IMG/VR virus record: IMGVR_UViG_3300010354_000291
Coordinates: 1 to 34,171 of that record
DNA length: 34,171 nucleotides
Strand: one strand, 5' to 3'
DNA from: a virus
In this document: positions 902-32,511 of the stretch, in pieces
Numbering within the stretch: the stretch's first letter is position 1
How the letters are laid out: every line of letters starts with the position of its first letter
Notes under the pieces: generated by a model
The model's input: the letters and a program-made list of their open reading frames with translations, nothing else
What the model was told of the DNA's origin: nothing
Databases searched by the model: none
Translations under genes and position numbers: made by a program

Positions 902-1349
902 ACTGGACATTAAGAGAGAATTACAAGCCGTTAATAACAAGGATTACGACTTTTATTCCAATCTTACGGACGAGGAGAAAAAAGCATTTGCTCCTTATAT
1001 TCTAATGCGCTATGTCAGCAATCCAAGAAATCGAGATGCTCAAGAATGGTGTATAGAACGAACCAATGAATTTGTTAATAAGAATCACTGGTTACTTTCA
1101 AAAAATCATAAATCTCTGCTGTGGAAGCTTTATGCCGGTATGGGATTAGGAATGAATTTAGATTATCAATATGTAGCAGCAGGTAAAAAAGAAAAAGCCA
1201 ATAAAATAGAAAAACTACTTGTAGAACTTTATCCTGCAATGAAAATGAATGAAATAAAAATGCTGGCTGCAATGATGACTGATGTAGATAAACAAGAATT
1301 GTTTGATAAAATGGGTCTAGACAAAAAATCAAGAAAAGAATACGAATGA
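891..1349 (+). CDS. Probable DNA polymerase clamp-loader small subunit (gp62-like)
   Basis: A 152-residue, mostly helical, lysine-rich protein. After an N-terminal FYSNLTDEEKKAF comes APYILMRYVSN, which resembles the P-F/Y-I-x-N/M-R block of gp62-type clamp-loader A subunits. The C-terminal half (KKEKANKIEKLL, Y.A.K.NEIKMLA, then DKQELFDKMGLDK) follows the same family layout. In T4, gp62 works with gp44 to load the gp45 clamp. T4 gp62 is longer (187 aa). gp44 and gp45 are not in the window. The call rests on remembered motif similarity only. The stop overlaps the next ATG (ATGA). Confidence 0.5.
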   Translation: MAAKLDIKRELQAVNNKDYDFYSNLTDEEKKAFAPYILMRYVSNPRNRDAQEWCIERTNEFVNKNHWLLSKNHKSLLWKLYAGMGLGMNLDYQYVAAGKKEKANKIEKLLVELYPAMKMNEIKMLAAMMTDVDKQELFDKMGLDKKSRKEYE

Positions 1350-2041
1350 TAGAACCCGTAGAGCAACCTTTCAACTGCAATCATTGTGGCAAGAGTTTTA
1401 TGAAAGAAAAAACTCTTTATGCTCACATGTGCGAGCCAAAGCGCAGAATGATGCAGAAATCAGAAAAACGTGTTCAAGCAGGATTTTTAGCATTTAATAG
1501 ATTTTGGGTTATTTCTCAAGGTAGTAGAAAAGAAAAAACCTATGAAGAATTTTGCGATAGTCCTTACTACAATGCATTTGTAAAATTTGGTAGTTTTATC
1601 AACAATGTAAATCCGTTGTATCCAGAAAGATTCATGGACTATGTGATAAAAAGTGGTGTTAAACTCGATCATTGGTGTAGGGATGAATTGTACGAAACGT
1701 ACCTCTATGAAATTTTAAAGATTGAACCTGTAGAAGCAGCGGTGCAAAGATCTTTACAAACCATGATGCAGTGGGCAGACGAAAATAACGCAAATTTTTC
1801 TCACTATTTTAACTATGCAACTTTGAATAGAGCAGTTTTTGATATCAGAAACGGTAATATCAGCGCCTGGATTGTGCTAAATTCAAGCACAGGTCAAACC
1901 ATGCTTAACAATATGAGCGACGAACAATTGGATATGATCAGTGCCGTGATAGATGTGCAATTTTGGAAGAAAAAATTCAAGGAATTTCCTGCTGATGTAG
2001 CATTGGTTAAGGAAATTTGCAAAGAAACAGGAATAAAATAA
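1346..2041 (+). CDS. Protein with an N-terminal C2H2/C2HC-type zinc finger
   Basis: A 231-residue protein. Residues about 10-28 hold C-x2-C-x12-H-x-C (CNHCGKSF...AHMC), a zinc-finger-like knuckle followed by a basic KRR patch, as in a nucleic-acid-binding module. The rest is a helical, aromatic-rich domain with no motif I can name. It overlaps the probable gp62 gene by 4 nt and abuts the cupin gene as TAATG. I infer a DNA- or RNA-binding phage protein; the target is unknown. Confidence 0.7.
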   Translation: MIEPVEQPFNCNHCGKSFMKEKTLYAHMCEPKRRMMQKSEKRVQAGFLAFNRFWVISQGSRKEKTYEEFCDSPYYNAFVKFGSFINNVNPLYPERFMDYVIKSGVKLDHWCRDELYETYLYEILKIEPVEAAVQRSLQTMMQWADENNANFSHYFNYATLNRAVFDIRNGNISAWIVLNSSTGQTMLNNMSDEQLDMISAVIDVQFWKKKFKEFPADVALVKEICKETGIK

Positions 2042-2412
2042 TGGTTCAGAAGAAAACACAATTACATGGTTTAGTACCTAAAGGTTGGGGTAGTGAAGTC
2101 ATATGGTGCAGTAATGAAAAATACTGCGGAAAGATGATGAATTTTCACAAAAACGCAAAATTTAGCATGCATTTTCATGCCGAAAAGGATGAAACTTGGC
2201 ATGTTTTAAGCGGAAAATTTTTAGTGCGCTATATTGATACAAAAGATGCAAGTCAGCATGAAAAAGAATTAAATGTAGGTGATACTTGGCATAACCCTCC
2301 CTTGTTTCCTCACCAAGTAATCTGCCTAGAAGAGGGCACAATTATCGAAGTTAGCACCCCAGATAGCGTGGAAGACAACTATCGAGTAATACCAGGAGAC
2401 AGCCAAAAATGA
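2041..2412 (+). CDS. Cupin-domain protein of the sugar-nucleotide module
   Basis: 123 residues forming one small cupin. Motif 1 is visible as H44-x-H46...E51-x-W (MHFHAEKDETWHV) and motif 2 as GD...P...PH91 (VGDTWHNPP...FPHQV), supplying the usual metal ligands. It resembles the C-terminal cupin of type II mannose-6-phosphate isomerases. The ATG at 2041 shares its A with the upstream stop (TAATG); a TTG 24 nt upstream is less likely. The stop overlaps hldD. It probably serves as an isomerase, epimerase or accessory enzyme in phage heptose synthesis; the exact reaction cannot be read from sequence. Confidence 0.75.
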   Translation: MVQKKTQLHGLVPKGWGSEVIWCSNEKYCGKMMNFHKNAKFSMHFHAEKDETWHVLSGKFLVRYIDTKDASQHEKELNVGDTWHNPPLFPHQVICLEEGTIIEVSTPDSVEDNYRVIPGDSQK

Positions 2413-3188
2413 AAATTTTAATTACAGGACATAAAGGCTTTATTGGTAAAAATATGGTCGATGCTCTTAAAGATGAGCACGAATTAAAATTCTACGATTG
2501 GGGTGGAGAATTACCAAATTTGCGGGATACAGATGTCTGCATACATCTAGGTGCAATTAGCAGCACAGTTGAAGATAATGTAGATCGAATCATGGAACAA
2601 AACTATGATTTCAGTAAATGGTTAGTTGAGGAATGCTGGAGATTTAGAGTTCATTTTCAATATGCGAGTTCTGCAAGTGTATACGGTTCTGGCACAAAAT
2701 TTACAGAAGATAGCCCAGTAGATCCCAAATCTCCCTATGCGTGGAGCAAATATCTTTTTGAAAGATATGTTGAAAAATATACATTAAAATGGGAAATGCC
2801 TGTACAGGGATTTAGGTATTTCAATGTATACGGACCAAACGAAGGCCATAAAGGTAATCAAAGCAGTCCGTTTGAAAAATTTCGAAAACAAGCAAAAGAA
2901 ACTGGTACTATTGAAATATTTGAAGGATCACATGATTTTTATAGAGACTTTGTTCCTGTTAAAAAAGTTGTAGAAGTGCATAGAAAATTCTTTGGTGTTA
3001 ATAAAAGCGGTGTATGGAATGTTGGCACCGGTAAAGCTAGATCAATATTATCTATCGCTGAAGAAATTGCTGCAGAAACAGGAGCGATGATAAGATATGT
3101 ACCTATGCCCAAAAATATTGCTAATCAATACCAAAATTTTACCTGTGCAGATTTAACAAAATTAAAATCTACAATACCCTATGAATAA
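2409..3188 (+). CDS. hldD: ADP-L-glycero-D-manno-heptose 6-epimerase (HldD-like, SDR family)
   Basis: A 259-residue extended SDR enzyme. The N-terminal Rossmann motif is G7-x-x-G10-x-x-G13 (TGHKGFIG). The active-site pair is Y110-x3-K114 (SPYAWSK), preceded by SSAS. The block RYFNVYGPNEGHKG, followed later by FEGSHDFYRDFV, closely matches HldD/RfaD, which converts ADP-D-glycero- to ADP-L-glycero-D-manno-heptose. Cellular HldD is about 310 aa, so this is compact. It sits between the cupin and the split HldE genes with 4- and 8-nt overlaps. The neighbouring HldE homologues make this call stronger than a generic epimerase. Confidence 0.85.
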   Translation: MKILITGHKGFIGKNMVDALKDEHELKFYDWGGELPNLRDTDVCIHLGAISSTVEDNVDRIMEQNYDFSKWLVEECWRFRVHFQYASSASVYGSGTKFTEDSPVDPKSPYAWSKYLFERYVEKYTLKWEMPVQGFRYFNVYGPNEGHKGNQSSPFEKFRKQAKETGTIEIFEGSHDFYRDFVPVKKVVEVHRKFFGVNKSGVWNVGTGKARSILSIAEEIAAETGAMIRYVPMPKNIANQYQNFTCADLTKLKSTIPYE

Positions 3189-3582
3189 AGTCATTGTCAA
3201 TGGTACATTTGATATTCTACATGTTGGGCACCTTAAAATGCTTCAACAAGCTAGAAACATCAAAGACAGTTATGTTTTAGTATTAATTGACAGTGACGAC
3301 AGGGTCAGAAAGTTAAAAGGCAATAATAGGCCTATAAATTCGCAAACAGAAAGAAAGACGATGCTTGAAGCACTACGTTACGTTGATGAAGTAAAAGTAT
3401 TTTCAAGTTCGGATGAACTTGTAAGTATGATAAGGGAATACGCTCCAGACGTAATGGTCAAAGGCAGCGACTACATCGGTAAACCCATAATTGGCGAAGA
3501 GCACTGTAAAGAAATACAATATTGTAATTACGTAGATGGATATTCAACCACAAACAAAATTCAAAGTATTATTAGTCGGTGA
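3181..3582 (+). CDS. hldE (C-domain): Heptose-1-phosphate adenylyltransferase (HldE C-terminal-domain-like)
   Basis: A 133-residue nucleotidyltransferase. The signature H14-x-G-H17 (FDILHVGHLKML) binds the nucleotide phosphates, and KLKG, RP and VMVKGSDY follow as in the HldE C-terminal domain, which joins ATP and D-glycero-beta-D-manno-heptose 1-phosphate into ADP-heptose. In E. coli this domain is fused behind the kinase. Here it is a separate gene placed before the kinase. It overlaps hldD by 8 nt and the kinase by 47 nt. A CTP- or glycerol-phosphate-specific relative is possible, but the context favours heptose. Confidence 0.82.
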   Translation: MNKVIVNGTFDILHVGHLKMLQQARNIKDSYVLVLIDSDDRVRKLKGNNRPINSQTERKTMLEALRYVDEVKVFSSSDELVSMIREYAPDVMVKGSDYIGKPIIGEEHCKEIQYCNYVDGYSTTNKIQSIISR

Positions 3583-4294
3583 TTATTGTACCGATGAATA
3601 TATTATTGGAACCTGCGACAGGTTAAGTCCTGAAGCTCCGGTGCCTGTAATTAGAATAGTAGAAAGTTATACTGGCCCTGGTATGGCCGGAAATGTAAAA
3701 GTAAATTTAGATAAGTTGGGTGCGGACGTAGATTTTGTAACAGCAGAAGCAGTTATTACAAAAACAAGGTATATTGATCAAAGGTCTAGACAGCATCTTC
3801 TAAGAGTAGATTTAGAACCAAAGATCTCTAAATGGGATCGCAAAATTCCTCAAGATCTAACCAATTACGATTGCCTTATAATATCAGACTACAATAAGGG
3901 ATTTTTGTCTTACGAAGATATTGAGTATTTGATTCAAAATTACAAAGGTCCAATTTTTATCGATTCAAAGAAACCAGATCTATCTCGTTTTAACGGGGCT
4001 TTTATAAAGATTAATGAATTAGAAAATAGAAATAAGACATCTTCAAATTCTAATATGATTGTCACTCTTGGCAGTCGTGGCGCCATGTATGGAAATAAAA
4101 TATTTCCTACCAAGTCCGTAGAAGTTGTAGATGTTTGTGGCTGCGGTGATACGTTTTTAGCAGCATTAAGTTATCAATATCTAATGACAAAGTCCATTAA
4201 CGAAGCTATTATATTCGCTAATAAAGCATCTAGTATTACCGTTCAGAAAGAAGGTAATTACGCTCCTACGCTGGCGGAAATTAACAATGCCTGA
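3536..4294 (+). CDS. hldE (N-domain): PfkB-family heptose-7-phosphate kinase (HldE N-terminal-domain-like)
   Basis: A 252-residue PfkB/ribokinase-fold protein. VLLVGDYCTDEY, RLSPEAPVPV and GPGMAGNVKVNL parallel the start of the HldE kinase domain (VGD..LDRY, RISPEAPVPV, GGAANVA). Near the C-terminus VCGCGDTFLAAL matches the PfkB signature, with GCGD supplying the catalytic aspartate. It should phosphorylate D-glycero-D-manno-heptose 7-phosphate at C1. It is shorter than the roughly 318-residue cellular domain. The ATG at 3536 lies inside the adenylyltransferase gene, and the N-terminus begins right at the conserved block, which supports it. The stop overlaps the DnaE-like gene. Confidence 0.8.
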   Translation: MDIQPQTKFKVLLVGDYCTDEYIIGTCDRLSPEAPVPVIRIVESYTGPGMAGNVKVNLDKLGADVDFVTAEAVITKTRYIDQRSRQHLLRVDLEPKISKWDRKIPQDLTNYDCLIISDYNKGFLSYEDIEYLIQNYKGPIFIDSKKPDLSRFNGAFIKINELENRNKTSSNSNMIVTLGSRGAMYGNKIFPTKSVEVVDVCGCGDTFLAALSYQYLMTKSINEAIIFANKASSITVQKEGNYAPTLAEINNA

Positions 4295-4850
4295 CATTGA
4301 CATTGACTTTGCAGACAGAACAAAAATACTTGATATAATCAGGCATGTTCCTGCTACTTTAGAAGATGGAAGGAAACATAACACTGGTGTTTATTGTCAG
4401 GAGATCCCTGTCAATCCAATTACTGGTCAGGCCAGTATAGACTATAATACTGCTGAACAGAGAGGATATTTTAAAATAGATTTTCTCAATGTAGGCATAT
4501 ATCAAGACATAAAAGACGAAAACCATTTAAATAAATTGTTGGAGACAGAACCACTATGGCAGCTTTTACAACACGAAGAGTTCGTAAATCAATTATTTCA
4601 TTTGAACGGTCATGGGGATGTACTGAAGAAGACCTGCCCTACTTCCGTGGAACAGTTAGGTGCCGTCCTAGCGATGATACGCCCGGCCAAACGCTATCTG
4701 ATTGGGAAAGATTGGACGACAATTATGAACGAAGTGTGGATCAAGCCAGAGACTGGTGAATACTACTTTAAAAAAGCACATGCAATAAGTTACGCAATGG
4801 CAGTCATAGTACATATGAATTTGCTTTGCGAAAAGATAAGTTACGATTAA
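4287..4850 (+). CDS. Condensed DnaE-like protein (Pol III alpha catalytic-motif fragments)
   Basis: A 187-residue protein that strings together the conserved blocks of bacterial DNA polymerase III alpha. PDIDIDF (D5, D7) matches the two palm aspartates D401/D403 of E. coli DnaE. RKHNTGVY matches KHAGGVV. YFKIDFLNVG (D65) matches KFDFLGL with the third aspartate D555. FHLNGHG matches FQLESRG, AMIRPAK matches ALFRPGP, and KKAHAISYA matches NKSHSAAYA. The PHP domain, the long segments between blocks, tandem HhH, clamp-binding motif and OB-fold are missing (DnaE is about 1,160 aa). All three catalytic aspartates appear kept. It starts inside the kinase gene (ATGCCTGA). Polymerase activity is unproven. 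Confidence 0.75.
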   Translation: MPDIDIDFADRTKILDIIRHVPATLEDGRKHNTGVYCQEIPVNPITGQASIDYNTAEQRGYFKIDFLNVGIYQDIKDENHLNKLLETEPLWQLLQHEEFVNQLFHLNGHGDVLKKTCPTSVEQLGAVLAMIRPAKRYLIGKDWTTIMNEVWIKPETGEYYFKKAHAISYAMAVIVHMNLLCEKISYD

Positions 4851-4855
4851 TCCTA

Positions 4856-5701
4856 ATGTCTCAAAATAAAAGATATTTTGCTTTTGGTTGTAGTTATGTT
4901 CACTACGGCTGGGCCACAACTGCGGATCTAATTGCTGCTAATTTTGACAAGTATTATAATTATGGTGTATCTGGTTCTTGCAACAGCTACATTTTATCAA
5001 GGGTAATAGAAGCCAACGATACTCATCAATTTTGCGAAGAAGATTTTGTTACTGTTGGAATTACTGGGTACGGAAGATTTAATTTTTTAGACAAAGCTAA
5101 TCCCAATCATTGGGTAACTAGCGGAGACACTATTCCTCCAGATCCTAGAAAAACTATAGAAGAATACGCTCCTAGTCACGATTGGAGAGCAAAACTATTT
5201 GCTAGTCAGTTAGATTCTTATGCTTGGTGCGTACAAAGATCTTATGTATCTATTCAATCAATTTTAAATATTTTGCAAAATACAAAAGTAAAATACACAA
5301 TCTATCCTGCCATCGATAATTTTTTATTCACTCAAAATTTTAAAAAAGATACAAATTATCAAGACTATTTTAATCTCACGGAATTATATCAAAATTTAGC
5401 TAAAAAAATTCTAGATCTTTGCACAGTAAAAGAAAGTGTTGACGAATTTATTAGAAAAAATAAGCTAGCTCGTGGAGTAACATATCTAAACGGAGAATTT
5501 AGCGGTCATCCTAATCAAAGCAATCACTACGATTATTTAAAAAAGCACTTTTTAGAGTTTGATACCGATAAAACCAAAGATAGATATAATTTTGTTGAAT
5601 CAATTTTCTGCAATCAAAGTCACATTGAGCAGAGTTTAGATTTTGGAGAAAAATTTAGTGAAGTGTATAAAGAAAAAGTGCCTACTTTTTACTACGATTA
5701 A
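4856..5701 (+). CDS. SGNH/GDSL-like hydrolase fold protein
   Basis: 281 residues from the ATG at 4856, 5 nt after the upstream stop. FGCSYVHYGWA holds a G-x-S nucleophile-type block (S13), YGVSGSCNSYI has a later Gly...Asn (N43), and GHPNQSNHYDYL near residue 217 resembles the C-terminal SGNH block with H218. Such proteins can be esterases or acetyl-hydrolases acting on glycans, which would suit its place behind the heptose genes. The motifs are degenerate (GCS, not GDS), so a non-catalytic fold is possible. It converges with the next gene, overlapping by 4 nt. Confidence 0.5.
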   Translation: MSQNKRYFAFGCSYVHYGWATTADLIAANFDKYYNYGVSGSCNSYILSRVIEANDTHQFCEEDFVTVGITGYGRFNFLDKANPNHWVTSGDTIPPDPRKTIEEYAPSHDWRAKLFASQLDSYAWCVQRSYVSIQSILNILQNTKVKYTIYPAIDNFLFTQNFKKDTNYQDYFNLTELYQNLAKKILDLCTVKESVDEFIRKNKLARGVTYLNGEFSGHPNQSNHYDYLKKHFLEFDTDKTKDRYNFVESIFCNQSHIEQSLDFGEKFSEVYKEKVPTFYYD

Positions 5702-6078
5702 CGAATTGTTTTGACTTTTCTTATTAACTGAATTGACTTTCTTTTTATTCTTTTCTCTGCAATACTGCTAAGGTTTACAGCAGGACCAAACAGTAATTTA
5801 ACGTCTTTTGAATTAAAAGTTTTTACTGCAAATTTAAAATTCTGCATTTCTTTTTTTAGAAAAATGTTTATTGGAATTTTTCTATTGCTTTCCCACCACC
5901 ATGTTTCACCTAATTCTAAAAATATGCGTTTTTGATCCTGTGTTTTTAATTCGCTTATATCGTAGATAGTAGCTATTTGATTGTCAAAGTTGATTATTAT
6001 GCCTACATATTCCGAATCAGCTACTTTGATGCAGGATATAAATGGGTGTTCGTCTTGAAAGCTGATGTTAGATGGCAT
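5698..6078 (-). CDS. Conserved phage hypothetical protein
   Basis: 126 residues from the ATG at 6078; a start 51 nt upstream would run into the divergent promoter. The sequence starts MPSNISFQDEHPF and contains FLELGETWWWESN, followed by IPINIFL and a basic C-terminus. This pattern matches a hypothetical protein I recall from T4-like marine phages. There is no signal or membrane segment. It is divergent from the 6099 gene, with 20 nt between the starts. Function unknown. Confidence 0.75.
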   Translation of the reverse strand: MPSNISFQDEHPFISCIKVADSEYVGIIINFDNQIATIYDISELKTQDQKRIFLELGETWWWESNRKIPINIFLKKEMQNFKFAVKTFNSKDVKLLFGPAVNLSSIAEKRIKRKSIQLIRKVKTIR

Positions 6079-6085
6079 TTTTATC

Positions 6086-6093
6086 AATAAATA
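6086..6093 (+). promoter_or_regulatory. T4-type late promoter
   Basis: AATAAATA, the sigma-gp55-type late element, ends 5 nt before the ATG at 6099. No Shine-Dalgarno fits in the gap, so transcription would start at or next to the ATG. Confidence 0.65.
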
Positions 6094-6098
6094 TACAT

Positions 6099-6938
6099 AT
6101 GCAAACTTTACCAATCTATTTATATCCAAATACCTACAGTGTTATACTAGATTTGGACAGCACTATCCTAGGAGTAAATCGTGTTATGTATCAAAATGAT
6201 CTCAAATTACAGAGAGGCGTGAAAAACTCTGTAAAAATACAGTTTAAAAACAGTGATCAAAAAAGAATACGTGTTTATTCTACAGGAACTTATGTTTTCA
6301 ATATGTTTGATATTGCCAGTAAACAGTTAGTTACACAGAAACCATTACAGATAATAGATGACGGTGTAACAACAAGTACGAAAGGATTGGCTGTTTTAAA
6401 TCTTATTGAATCGGATACAATTGGTTTATCAAAGTCTGCTTATAACTTCAGTATTACCTATCTTGATCCCGATGATAACACAGTAAATCCTGCATATGCA
6501 AATACCTATTACGGTATGTTAGGAACAGCATATTTAGGAAATGATGCTTATCCAGAACTCAAAAACAGTCAGGATGTAACCGCCTTTAATCAAGTTCTAA
6601 ATGCAACAACTAATCTTTATGAATGGAAAAGTGGAGATACTTATTCCTACCCAGAACTTGCTACCAGTAATTCTGTGCATACAGCAGGAATTTATTTGAC
6701 AGGTTATCGAGGATCATTAAAAATAGAGGGTACATTATCAAATCAACCCAGCGACTCAAATTACTCTCTAATCAAAACATTAGATTACACAAACTTTACC
6801 GGCGTAGACTATTGTAATTTTTCTGGTGTCTACTCCTATGTTAGATTTGTGTTTATACCGGCTGTAAAACCTGGAGATAGTGTTAACGACGACCCTAGTT
6901 ATTTCGGATCTTTTGACAAAATACTCTATAGAAGCTAA
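6099..6938 (+). CDS. Putative virion structural protein
   Basis: 279 residues, rich in Thr, Ser, Asn, Tyr and predicted beta, with no membrane segment. The N-terminus (IYLYPNTYSVILDLD) leads into VKNSVKIQFKNSDQKRIRV, which resembles the opening of baseplate/neck proteins of T4-like phages that begin with an immunoglobulin-like or BppU-like domain. The late promoter directly at its ATG supports a structural, late-expressed role. It ends 9 nt before the primase start. Structural assignment is inference; no family is named with certainty. Confidence 0.5.
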   Translation: MQTLPIYLYPNTYSVILDLDSTILGVNRVMYQNDLKLQRGVKNSVKIQFKNSDQKRIRVYSTGTYVFNMFDIASKQLVTQKPLQIIDDGVTTSTKGLAVLNLIESDTIGLSKSAYNFSITYLDPDDNTVNPAYANTYYGMLGTAYLGNDAYPELKNSQDVTAFNQVLNATTNLYEWKSGDTYSYPELATSNSVHTAGIYLTGYRGSLKIEGTLSNQPSDSNYSLIKTLDYTNFTGVDYCNFSGVYSYVRFVFIPAVKPGDSVNDDPSYFGSFDKILYRS

Positions 6939-6947
6939 ACTTATAGA

Positions 6948-7946
6948 GTGAACGAAATTCAATCTGCTATCCTTAGTTTACTGCCAGCCAAGCGTAAATC
7001 AACTCCCAGCGGGTGGACCAGCTTCAATGCTGTGTGCTGTCATCATAACGGTGAATCGGCAGATAACAGACAACGTGGTGGTATACTTGTAAACGGTGAA
7101 GGTGGTATCCAATATCATTGTTTTAACTGCAATTTTAAAGCAGGTTGGTCTCCAGGAAAATTGTTATCGTCTAATACTAAAAAATTACTACATTGGCTAG
7201 GGTTAGGACAAACCGAAATCAGCAAACTAGGATTAGTGGCTTTGCGTCTCAAAGACGATCAACCTATAAGCAAGAAAGAATTACGTTTTGAATTAGAAGA
7301 ACGAGAATTGCCAGACAGAACGCAAAGCATTGAAAAATGGCTTAGCGATGGATGCGATGAAACCGACCTTATTGCTGTAATTGATTATGTTGTTAATCAA
7401 AGACGAATGAAATGGGATTGGTACAAATGGCACTGGAGTGCCGCGCCAGGATATAGGGATAGAGTGATAATTCCGTTCTATCAAGATGGAAAAATCGTAG
7501 GATACACAGGTAGAAAAATTGGAGAAGGTCGCCCAAAATATTTGGCAGACACACAGCCTGGCTATGTTTTCAATTTAGATCAGCAAAGTGATGAGAGAGA
7601 ATATATAATTGCTGTTGAAGGACAGTTTGATGCTATCGCCGTAGATGGTGTTGCTTTCATGCATAACGAGCCAAACGATGTTCAATGTGCTAGAATAATT
7701 GCATTAAACAAAGAAGTAATCGTTGTTCCAGATAGAGATCGCGCTGGCGCCAAAATATTAAATGCAGCCATTGAACATGGTTGGAGTGCAAGTATGCCGC
7801 CATGGGAAGATGACATAAAGGATGTTGCGGATGCAGTAAAACGTTATGGTCGTCTCTATGTGCTAACTACTATACTGCACTATAAAATTTCAGGTGACTT
7901 AAAATTGAATCTATTAAAGAAAAAGTTGGAATATTTAAATGAGTAA
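6948..7946 (+). CDS. 61: DNA primase (gp61-type, zinc-binding plus Toprim)
   Basis: 332 residues, GTG start. The N-terminal zinc-binding domain has C30/C31-H-H and a second pair C58-x2-C61 (HCFNCNFKAGW). The Toprim core has AVEGQFDAIAVDG with E224 and VVPDRDRAG with D262-x-D264, binding catalytic magnesium. It makes RNA primers for lagging-strand synthesis with the helicase encoded directly downstream, which overlaps by 8 nt. The primase-helicase pair is a strong T4-type replication signature. There is no clear Shine-Dalgarno before the GTG (TTATAGAGTG). Confidence 0.88.
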   Translation: MNEIQSAILSLLPAKRKSTPSGWTSFNAVCCHHNGESADNRQRGGILVNGEGGIQYHCFNCNFKAGWSPGKLLSSNTKKLLHWLGLGQTEISKLGLVALRLKDDQPISKKELRFELEERELPDRTQSIEKWLSDGCDETDLIAVIDYVVNQRRMKWDWYKWHWSAAPGYRDRVIIPFYQDGKIVGYTGRKIGEGRPKYLADTQPGYVFNLDQQSDEREYIIAVEGQFDAIAVDGVAFMHNEPNDVQCARIIALNKEVIVVPDRDRAGAKILNAAIEHGWSASMPPWEDDIKDVADAVKRYGRLYVLTTILHYKISGDLKLNLLKKKLEYLNE

Positions 7947-9381
7947 AACCAATTACAATTATGATATGCAAAAATTGTATTTGGAAATGTTTCTCAGTGA
8001 TGCAGAGACATTTACTCGTTGTCAAACAATTTTTAGTCCGCAGAATTTTGATCAAAAACTTCAAGATACGGCAGAGTTTATCACTACCTATGTAGACAAA
8101 TACAAAACCATGCCTGAAGCCAACATAGTGAATACTGCTTGCGGTGTTGAACTTAATCCTGTTGCACTACCTAAGGAACACTATAATTGGTTGTTAAATG
8201 AGTTTGAAAATTTCAGTAGACATAAGAGCCTTGAGAGAGCGATTCTTAAAAGTGCAGACTTGCTGGAAAAGGGAGATTATGGTCCTGTAGAAAAACTTGT
8301 TAAAGATGCTATTCAAATTAGCCTAAACAAGAACATGGGAACAGACTATTGGGAAGATCCTAGAGCAAGGTTGATGAAGCTGAAAGAAAACAATGGTCAG
8401 GTCAGCACAGGTTGGCCCACTGTTGATAAGAAACTATATGGCGGATTCAAACGCGGAGAACTCAACATTTGGTGTGCTGGGTCAGGCGGCGGTAAGAGCC
8501 TGTTCTTAGCTAATCAAGGATTGAATTTTGCTCTAGCAGGTCTTAATGTAATTTATTTTACATTTGAGTTGAGTGAAGAACTAGTCAGCATGCGATTAGA
8601 CAGCATGGTCACTGGTACAGCTACTAGAGAAATTTTTAAGAATCTTGATGATGTTGAAATGAAAGTCAAGATGATGCGTAAGAAAGCCAGCGAAATACAG
8701 GTTGTATACATGCCCTCAGGCAAAAATTGCAACGACCTTAGATCCTATCTAAAAGAATATCAAGTTAAATTTGGCAAAAAGCCTGATGTAATTTTGGTAG
8801 ACTATTTGGATCTAATGATGCCTTTGAGTATCAAGGTAAGTCCCAGCGATTTGTATGTTAAAGACAAGTATGTATCGGAAGAACTACGCAATCTAGCAAT
8901 GGAAACTCAGTGCGTAGTTGTAACAGCAAGTCAGTTGAATAGAGCAGCAGTTGAAGAAATTGAATTTGATCACAGTCATATTTCAGGCGGCTTAAGCAAG
9001 ATTCAAACTGCTGACAACGTAATTGGTATCTTTACAAGTCGTGCTATGCGTGAACGTGGTCGTTATCAAATTCAGTTTATGAAAACACGTTCAAGTAGCG
9101 GTGTTGGACAAAAAGTTGAACTAGATTTTAATATCGATACATTGCGTATCACTGATCCTGGTGAGGAAGAAACCGAAGCCAATTTAAATCAAATGCGTTC
9201 AAATTCCAATAATAATATCATGCAAGGATTACGCAGAACCAGCGTTGTAAGCAGCACAGCCACTGAGCAAGAATCTATAGACCCTACACAGGGTGTATCA
9301 ATAAACAAGATTAAATCAAAAAATCCATCAGCACCGCTGATTAGATCTTTCTTAACTGATATTAGTCCAGAAAAAGATTAA
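7939..9381 (+). CDS. 41: Replicative DNA helicase (gp41/DnaB-like)
   Basis: 480 residues. The N-terminal helical domain (about 1-140) is followed by a RecA-like ATPase. Walker A is GSGGGKS (181-187), Walker B is DVILVDYLDLM (about 283-293), with a following TASQLNR and an arginine-rich C-terminal block. It acts as a ring helicase unwinding the fork 5'-3' and recruits primase. Length and order (primase then helicase) fit the T4-like replisome. It overlaps primase at the start and converges with the AlgH-like gene by 4 nt. Confidence 0.92.
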   Translation: MSKTNYNYDMQKLYLEMFLSDAETFTRCQTIFSPQNFDQKLQDTAEFITTYVDKYKTMPEANIVNTACGVELNPVALPKEHYNWLLNEFENFSRHKSLERAILKSADLLEKGDYGPVEKLVKDAIQISLNKNMGTDYWEDPRARLMKLKENNGQVSTGWPTVDKKLYGGFKRGELNIWCAGSGGGKSLFLANQGLNFALAGLNVIYFTFELSEELVSMRLDSMVTGTATREIFKNLDDVEMKVKMMRKKASEIQVVYMPSGKNCNDLRSYLKEYQVKFGKKPDVILVDYLDLMMPLSIKVSPSDLYVKDKYVSEELRNLAMETQCVVVTASQLNRAAVEEIEFDHSHISGGLSKIQTADNVIGIFTSRAMRERGRYQIQFMKTRSSSGVGQKVELDFNIDTLRITDPGEEETEANLNQMRSNSNNNIMQGLRRTSVVSSTATEQESIDPTQGVSINKIKSKNPSAPLIRSFLTDISPEKD

Positions 9382-9929
9382 AAGTAAGATTTTACTTTTA
9401 TTTCTATAGATTGCTGTAGACAGGCTTCCCATAGAATGTCGTGGTCTGTATTAAACACGTTATCAATATCGGCAGGCAGTATCTCCCATTTAAACGGATC
9501 TGATGGATCCCTTTCCTTACCAAGATGCTTGTCTAATCTGCCCTCGTCAAATAACCAATAACCTGCACAGGCTTTGAGATAGGTTGGTCCTTCATCTTTT
9601 GCAATTGCCATTAGTATACTGATATCATGTGTGACGCCAATTGTATTAGTTAAGGGAACGGTTCCTATTCCTCTCCAATCTAAGCTATGTATGATATGTA
9701 CTTTATCTACAGCAATATTACCGCCGTACCAAATAGGATCGCTACCGTAATACTGTATATTCAAATTTCTAGCAATAGATGAAAGTGTATTATCGGGCTG
9801 TAATTTGTTTATTTGCAAGGCAATGCTTACGTCGTTTGTGTGGCTCAAACACAATAAAACAGCACGAGATAGGTCATCTTCTGGATTTGTAGGATTAGCT
9901 ATTAGTAAATTTCCTGCGTAATTTTTCAT
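9378..9929 (-). CDS. AlgH/YqgE-family protein (UPF0301/DUF179)
   Basis: 183 residues. GNLLIANPTN...DLSRAVLLCLSH matches the opening of the AlgH/YqgE family (GxLLIAxP...FxRxVV.LCeH). IQYYGSDPIWYGG, VHIIHS, IGVTHDISILMAIAKDEGP and CAGYWLFDEGRLDKHL follow the family order (YGGPV, LH, +T.D...l..iA.G.gP, GYaGW..GQLe.El). The bacterial role is poorly defined (alginate regulation in Pseudomonas). A phage copy is unusual. It lies between convergent helicase and divergent nucleotidyltransferase genes with its own late-type element. Confidence 0.8.
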   Translation of the reverse strand: MKNYAGNLLIANPTNPEDDLSRAVLLCLSHTNDVSIALQINKLQPDNTLSSIARNLNIQYYGSDPIWYGGNIAVDKVHIIHSLDWRGIGTVPLTNTIGVTHDISILMAIAKDEGPTYLKACAGYWLFDEGRLDKHLGKERDPSDPFKWEILPADIDNVFNTDHDILWEACLQQSIEIKVKSYF

Positions 9930-31959: not shown

Positions 31960-32511
31960 ATGACACACTTTAACTATATGTTTTTTTATTATCGCACTTC
32001 GCCCAGAGGCAATTCCAAATTTGGTATAGCTGAATGTCCTTGGAATAGGATAAGGCACGTGCAGCAGGGCACCGACGAACCTGTAACCTTTGATCGGTTA
32101 TGGCTCACTCGCAGCACAGGTTTTCCTGCGGCTAAGCGTGTGGAATCGCAGCTGAAAAAGCTCTACGCAGACCGCTGTCTCACACTGCAAACCCGACGTG
32201 CAGGGCACACGGAATGGTTCACTTCTCTGAATTACGCTGAATGGCTGGAAAATTTCCTAGCTAGGGCTGCTGAGCAGGAAATGGATGTTGTGGCCTATTC
32301 ACAGCCCTATTCTGCCACACGTCGCAGAGACTGTCCCTTTAATTTGCCCGAGAGCCTGCGCTTCAATGACCCCTGCTATCAACGGCTGTGGACCCAGTTG
32401 GCAGAAACAGATTGCAGCGCAGAGACTGTGATACAGCTACAGGATCGCGACTCACGTGTGTTTGCTAGAGGTCTTTTTGAACTCGAGGATGCAGAATTTT
32501 CTCTGCGCTAG
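31960..32511 (+). CDS. GIY-YIG-like (T5orf172/MUG113-type) protein
   Basis: 183 residues. FFYYRTSPRGNSKFGIAECP gives a degenerate Y..Y...KFGI block, followed by WNRIRHVQQGTDEPV like the PERRLRQLQTGN of T5orf172/MUG113 proteins, an AAKRVESQLKKLYADR helix and HTEWF (the gxEWF block). The canonical GIY-YIG tyrosines are altered, so nuclease activity is uncertain. It may be a degenerate homing-type nuclease or a DNA-binding relative. The ATG at 31960 has no Shine-Dalgarno. Confidence 0.6.
   Translation: MTHFNYMFFYYRTSPRGNSKFGIAECPWNRIRHVQQGTDEPVTFDRLWLTRSTGFPAAKRVESQLKKLYADRCLTLQTRRAGHTEWFTSLNYAEWLENFLARAAEQEMDVVAYSQPYSATRRRDCPFNLPESLRFNDPCYQRLWTQLAETDCSAETVIQLQDRDSRVFARGLFELEDAEFSLR

Follow-up and report, generated by a model that had tools for sequence, protein, structure and literature searches.

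The window analysed here (a 34,171-nucleotide stretch of DNA from an uncultured phage, IMG/VR record IMGVR_UViG_3300010354_000291) contains an ORF of 187 residues, which begins with an ATG overlapping the stop codon of the preceding gene and whose product carries sequence blocks of DnaE, the bacterial DNA polymerase III alpha subunit. The question raised by this locus is what so short a protein can be: a polymerase condensed into one chain, an enzyme acting unaided, an inhibitor of the host replisome, a decaying remnant or one part of a larger assembly. Based on the evidence described below, it is very probably the C-terminal, metal-binding subunit (hereafter the C half) of a two-protein minimal C-family polymerase of the DnaE type, belonging to the RaK2/Wroclawvirus/Atu_ph07-like jumbo phages.

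A split Pol III has already been described in the “group 2.2” jumbo phages by Iyer et al. 2021 (PMC7824862), who considered a possible role on one strand or in repair and suggested that it may resemble an ancestral form (PMC7824862); the ORF of the window is, given this description, an additional member of a known family. One component of the split enzyme (the N half, CBB_328) was reported as a truncated alpha subunit in the CBB genome paper (PMC5259590), and gp316 was noted in the Atu_ph07 paper (PMC6102473). In the literature searched, we found no experiments on a split minimal Pol III.

When aligned with E. coli DnaE, the ORF product is collinear with it, and the blocks that the first-pass annotation had listed are indeed present and in order. 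MPDIDIDF corresponds to residues 399-406 (the start methionine falling on M399), RKHNTGVY to HAGGVV (511), KIDFL to KFDFL (553), FHLNGHG...IRPAK to FQLES...RPGPL (609-643) and KKAHAISYA to NKSHSAAYA (757). The metal-binding catalytic aspartates of C-family polymerases are D401, D403 and D555 in E. coli (PMC3919608) and, with the first and third of these blocks placed at 399-406 and 553, their counterparts are D3, D5 and D65. All three catalytic aspartates are therefore retained, as had been proposed, whereas the numbering originally given to them (D5, D7 and D65) has to be corrected. D7 corresponds to E. coli D405, an additional aspartate of DnaE that is replaced by Asn in PolC, and its presence thus assigns the product to the DnaE type.

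Although a Pfam scan of the C half alone returned zero matches, the protein belongs to phrog_11778 (“DNA polymerase”; E=1.2e-62, residues 3-183), and its relatives, found in 63 phage records and at more than 550 places in IMG/VR, carry no annotation other than “DNA polymerase” or “hypothetical protein”; the phages that are named are overwhelmingly jumbo phages. A PDB search with a profile built from 67 relatives (E<=10) gave eight matches, all of them to Pol III alpha (best E=1.7e-5), in which the blocks follow the order seen in the ORF. The phrog_11778 and PDB matches are far beyond chance. Given these profile matches and the breadth of the family in phages and in IMG/VR, the original observation is real. 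Outside recognised phages, 12 matches were found in genome_contigs, all in metagenome-assembled genomes (MAGs), which we read as misbinned phage contigs, and none in 72,556 plasmid records. Two of the contigs (PBPT01000016.1 and PBPT01000082.1, of 335 kb and 153 kb) are assigned to a Neomarinimicrobiota MAG and resemble jumbo-phage sequences that ended up in a bacterial bin.

The residues expected to form the active site are conserved throughout the family. In the 67 close relatives D3, D5, D7, D65, H31, G34, K63, K135, K162 and H165 are invariant, and the four aspartates are also kept in the window and in ten divergent phages (Atu_ph07, Vibrio phage 2.275.O, XaC1, SCTP-2, XacN1, CM1, RaK2, Phosso, Paride and PBECO4), even where identity falls to 33%, with H165 retained in all the divergent phages compared. 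The aspartate codons switch freely between GAT and GAC. The dN/dS of the C half is 0.028 against its nearest relative (L001); across 341 usable pairs the median is 0.16 and the highest value 0.30. The protein is thus under purifying selection and its aspartates do not vary, which, together with the fact that all significant relatives of solved structure are Pol III alpha, bears out the earlier proposal of a selected mini-protein rather than a random fragment. The coordinates of the main features are collected in Table 1.

Table 1. Features of the window relevant to the putative split polymerase (positions refer to the whole 34,171-nucleotide stretch).
Feature	Position	Strand	Remark
Conserved neighbour, phrog_11058	1346..2041	+	Upstream of the C-half gene in relatives
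Putative C-terminal half of split minimal Pol III alpha (DnaE-type)	4287..4850	+	187 aa; phrog_11778
Codon of D3 (E. coli DnaE D401, catalytic)	4293..4295	+	Invariant; GAT and GAC both occur
Codon of D5 (E. coli DnaE D403, catalytic)	4299..4301	+	Invariant
Codon of D7 (E. coli DnaE D405; Asn in PolC)	4305..4307	+	DnaE-type marker
Codon of D65 (E. coli DnaE D555, catalytic)	4479..4481	+	Invariant
KKAHAISYA block (DnaE NKSHSAAYA), remainder of the fingers	4770..4796	+	K162 and H165 invariant in 67 relatives
Conserved convergent neighbour, phrog_11637, small gene	5698..6129	-	Directly downstream of the C-half gene in most relatives examined
DnaG-type primase	6948..7946	+	Synteny conserved
DnaB-like replicative helicase	7939..9381	+	Synteny conserved

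The structural model of the C half (mean pLDDT 88.6) agrees with this assignment. In VIA alignments Pol III alpha and PolC entries occupy the first 14 ranks (Z 5.0-8.2, up to 186 residues aligned), the next, unrelated entry having a Z of 3.2, and the model aligns with residues 403-784 of E. coli DnaE (Z 8.2). The rmsd of 5-6 Å reflects the large insertions that are missing from the C half. Foldseek gave zero matches at E<=0.001 for either half, its best match for the C half having an E of 0.012, with 12 Pol III alpha chains ranked at the top. The likeness of the modelled C half to cellular DnaE is weak by these two measures (the Foldseek E and the VIA rmsd); the structural assignment of both halves relies on VIA, collinearity and profiles taken together. 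The model nevertheless matches Pol III alpha, and the refuting result named in the first-pass annotation (a model unrelated to the Pol III palm) did not occur.

Much of DnaE is missing from the C half. D5 and D65 are separated by 60 residues, compared with 152 in E. coli DnaE, and the segment between RPGP (639) and NKSH (757) of the latter is reduced to about 28 residues; from these shortened segments, and with domain limits that we take from general knowledge of DnaE, the thumb and much of the fingers must be missing. PHP, clamp-binding and OB domains are also lacking. Searches for PHP were negative in all eight records searched, and the Pol III finger domain (PF17657) gave nothing outside the C half and only weak matches inside it. 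The palm segment bearing the GRGS motif is also absent from the ORF and is found in relatives as a separate protein, so that the 187-residue product alone lacks half of the active site. This bears directly on the suggestion that the protein is a minimal nucleotidyltransferase acting unaided on a DNA, RNA or protein substrate. The three metal-binding aspartates, several invariant Lys, His and Arg residues and the confidence with which the protein is modelled alone would all suit such an enzyme; however, in every contiguous DnaE examined the GRGS segment precedes the aspartate strand, and here that segment is a co-occurring protein which ends exactly where the C half starts, making unaided action improbable.

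The partner was identified by a PF07733 search: in Phosso, Paride and PBECO4 this domain matches another protein, encoded by its own ORF far from the C half. This N half (165-185 aa, phrog_11127) has the GRGS motif, contains WGVGRGSSVASY and terminates in ..LDWREFLR directly before its stop codon. It aligns with E. coli DnaE 319-392, while the C half begins at 399, and in PF07733 coordinates it stops at 95-101, where the weak matches of the C half begin (88-101). In phmmer comparisons with E. coli DnaE, the two halves score 14.5 and 8.0 bits separately and 28.3 bits when joined, the alignment of the joined sequence running as a single stretch through the junction. The model of the N half (pLDDT 85) aligns with E. 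coli DnaE 271-393 (Z 10-11; best Z 12.1, on 5lew), and the two models thus match abutting, non-overlapping parts of one DnaE chain. According to these alignments and models, the C half comprises shortened fingers and the palm strands on which the three catalytic aspartates lie, the N half (encoded elsewhere in relatives) the preceding palm segment with GRGS, and the two together an uninterrupted, near-complete DnaE palm, broken only in the short loop at 393-399, between FERFL and MPDxDxDF. The locus is therefore not one condensed DnaE, as the first-pass annotation had it, given that the GRGS-bearing first half of the palm belongs to a second protein encoded at a distance.

The two halves occur together in genomes, but not side by side. 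The N half is present in 59 of the 60 C-half phage records listed (the exception, PP728206, being a 109-kb record) and in all four IMG/VR contigs of at least 180 kb, where the halves are far apart, whereas shorter IMG/VR fragments usually carry one half only; co-occurrence and synteny of this kind are equally expected from shared descent alone. None of the 190 loci compared has both halves, so that the two genes are not neighbours, and in the seven records compared they lie tens to hundreds of kb apart (about 31 kb in PBECO4, 44 kb in Paride and 224 kb in Phosso). No N half was found on the window's own 34-kb record, and its presence in the phage of the window is inferred from these relatives.

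We also searched for fused forms, using a junction pattern validated on E. coli dnaE. The scan returned at least 80 phage loci with contiguous DnaE, in which the stretch from FERFL to MPDxDxDF is unbroken. Among the matches listed, the closed ORFs are mostly of at least 870 aa, the only short ones being a 704-aa ORF in L266 and a 310-aa ORF in L227, where DnaE is interrupted, and none is a fused N+C mini-polymerase. Between 4390 and 6900, L227 carries a phage DnaE in pieces, one ORF encoding the PHP part (331 aa) and another the palm part (310 aa), the latter stopping shortly before the third aspartate, and the interruption may be an intron, an intein or a frameshift.

Such an interrupted phage DnaE is a precedent for reading the C half as what is left of a full-length host DnaE that was captured, was broken up by rearrangement and is now decaying. 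Against this stand the identical split point in jumbo phages of many hosts, the invariant active site, the retention of both halves at distant sites and the strong purifying selection (dN/dS <=0.30). The selection data contradict decay, and we regard this as the least credible of the explanations considered.

The C half is encoded among genes for DNA replication and recombination. In Phosso, Paride and PBECO4 it is preceded by genes for SSB, UvsX, UvsY-like proteins, an exonuclease and a helicase and followed by a small convergent gene, a virion-annotated gene, primase and DnaB, a block whose annotation is incomplete (some genes being unannotated in individual genomes). UvsX/UvsY/UvsW-like genes, primase and DnaB are syntenic with the C half, and the gene order from a 167-aa gene onwards is common to the window and 17 compared loci, with additional genes inserted in the window's clade. 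The N half lies a few genes away from the clamp loader in PBECO4 and adjoins a clamp-loader-like ORF in Paride. A family-B polymerase is encoded in all seven large relatives, and none is found on the 34-kb fragment of the window.

This context is also relevant for another proposal of the first-pass annotation, a dominant-negative replisome inhibitor, taken here as a catalytically dead or regulatory mimic of DnaE which would compete with the host Pol III alpha for template or partners and stop host replication. Phages can inhibit host replisomes, and the C half does resemble part of the host DnaE. Yet such a mimic would need neither three invariant metal ligands nor a co-conserved, phage-specific dNTP-binding half, its expected tools (the parts of alpha that bind the clamp, tau and epsilon) are missing, and the gene sits among the replication genes of the phage itself. 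The proposal finds no support in these data, and we consider it even less probable than that of an enzyme acting unaided.

Several other features of the window deserve mention. A sugar cassette at 2017-4294 (cupin, NAD-dependent epimerase, HldE-like cytidylyltransferase and PfkB kinase, the two HldE-like activities being on separate overlapping ORFs) is inserted between a conserved 231-aa gene and the C-half gene; it is shared with close relatives (L001-L003, L005-L007 and L022) and missing in L012, L047, L053, L058, L069, L074, Phosso, Paride and PBECO4. A 280-aa ORF at 4859-5701, with zero Pfam or PHROG matches, is inserted between the C-half gene and the normally adjacent convergent phrog_11637 gene; it is 61% identical in L001, where nearly all compared neighbours exceed 92%, and its relative in L005 sits elsewhere, between primase and DnaB. 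A functional link between the phrog_11637 gene and the C half is possible. Beside DnaB, an AlgH-like (DUF179) protein is encoded at 9378-9929 on the minus strand (PF02622, E=5.6e-14), and a T5orf172 domain (PF10544), associated with GIY-YIG-type nucleases, is found at 31960-32511.

Compared with known systems, the window ORF is closest to the split Pol III of group 2.2 (phrog_11778 and phrog_11127 for the C and N units, respectively), having the same size, motifs, phage lineage and predicted role as the half that binds Mg2+ and template, with PolB present in the complete relatives. It differs in coming from an uncultured phage, with the N half and PolB outside the fragment, and in the sugar cassette that its clade carries upstream of the gene. 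With E. coli DnaE it shares, in the same order, the palm metal site (D401/D403/D555), D405, the HAGG-like strand and the RPG and NKSH blocks, but it has 187 aa instead of 1160, lacks PHP, thumb, most of the fingers, clamp-binding and OB domains, and leaves the N-terminal palm to another polypeptide. PolC, the Gram-positive C-family replicase, has the same palm fold (3f2b, Z 7.5) but Asn at the position of the extra Asp. The full-length DnaE of group 3.2 jumbo phages and others is likewise phage-encoded and has a C-family palm, although it is contiguous, usually 900-1,270 aa long, equipped with a PHP region at the N-terminus (PMC7824862) and unsplit at the C-half junction. To what was already described, the present analysis adds the exact junction, the corrected aspartates, the D405 (DnaE-type) signature and the co-occurrence count. 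It also provides estimates of selection, models made independently for each half and the observation that none of the matches listed is a fused form.

For the two-protein polymerase that we favour, the mechanism would be as follows. The two polypeptides would co-fold in trans to create a single nucleotidyltransferase active site, in which GRGS would grip the dNTP phosphates and D3, D5 and D65 would hold two Mg2+ ions. On balance we think that the pair is an active polymerase, even if activity is not assured, because the thumb, like the fingers segment corresponding to DnaE 643-757, is almost entirely missing. Since PHP, thumb, clamp-binding and OB domains are lacking, the pair might extend 3' ends over short stretches only (in gap filling, primer extension or recombination-linked repair), a role that we propose with lower confidence, and it could do so as an auxiliary polymerase beside the T4-like family-B replicase of the phage; the C-half gene lies within the recombination, primase and helicase block and the N-half gene near the clamp loader. 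More speculatively, the halves could be the smallest working two-subunit C-family polymerase known so far and share genome replication with the family-B replicase, in a mixed replisome of bacterial and archaeo-eukaryotic type, although we are inclined to doubt this. If active, the pair would reveal the minimum of Pol III alpha that is needed for catalysis and would provide a tractable minimal C-family polymerase, and it would raise the question of why phages possessing a family-B replicase retain a second, split polymerase.
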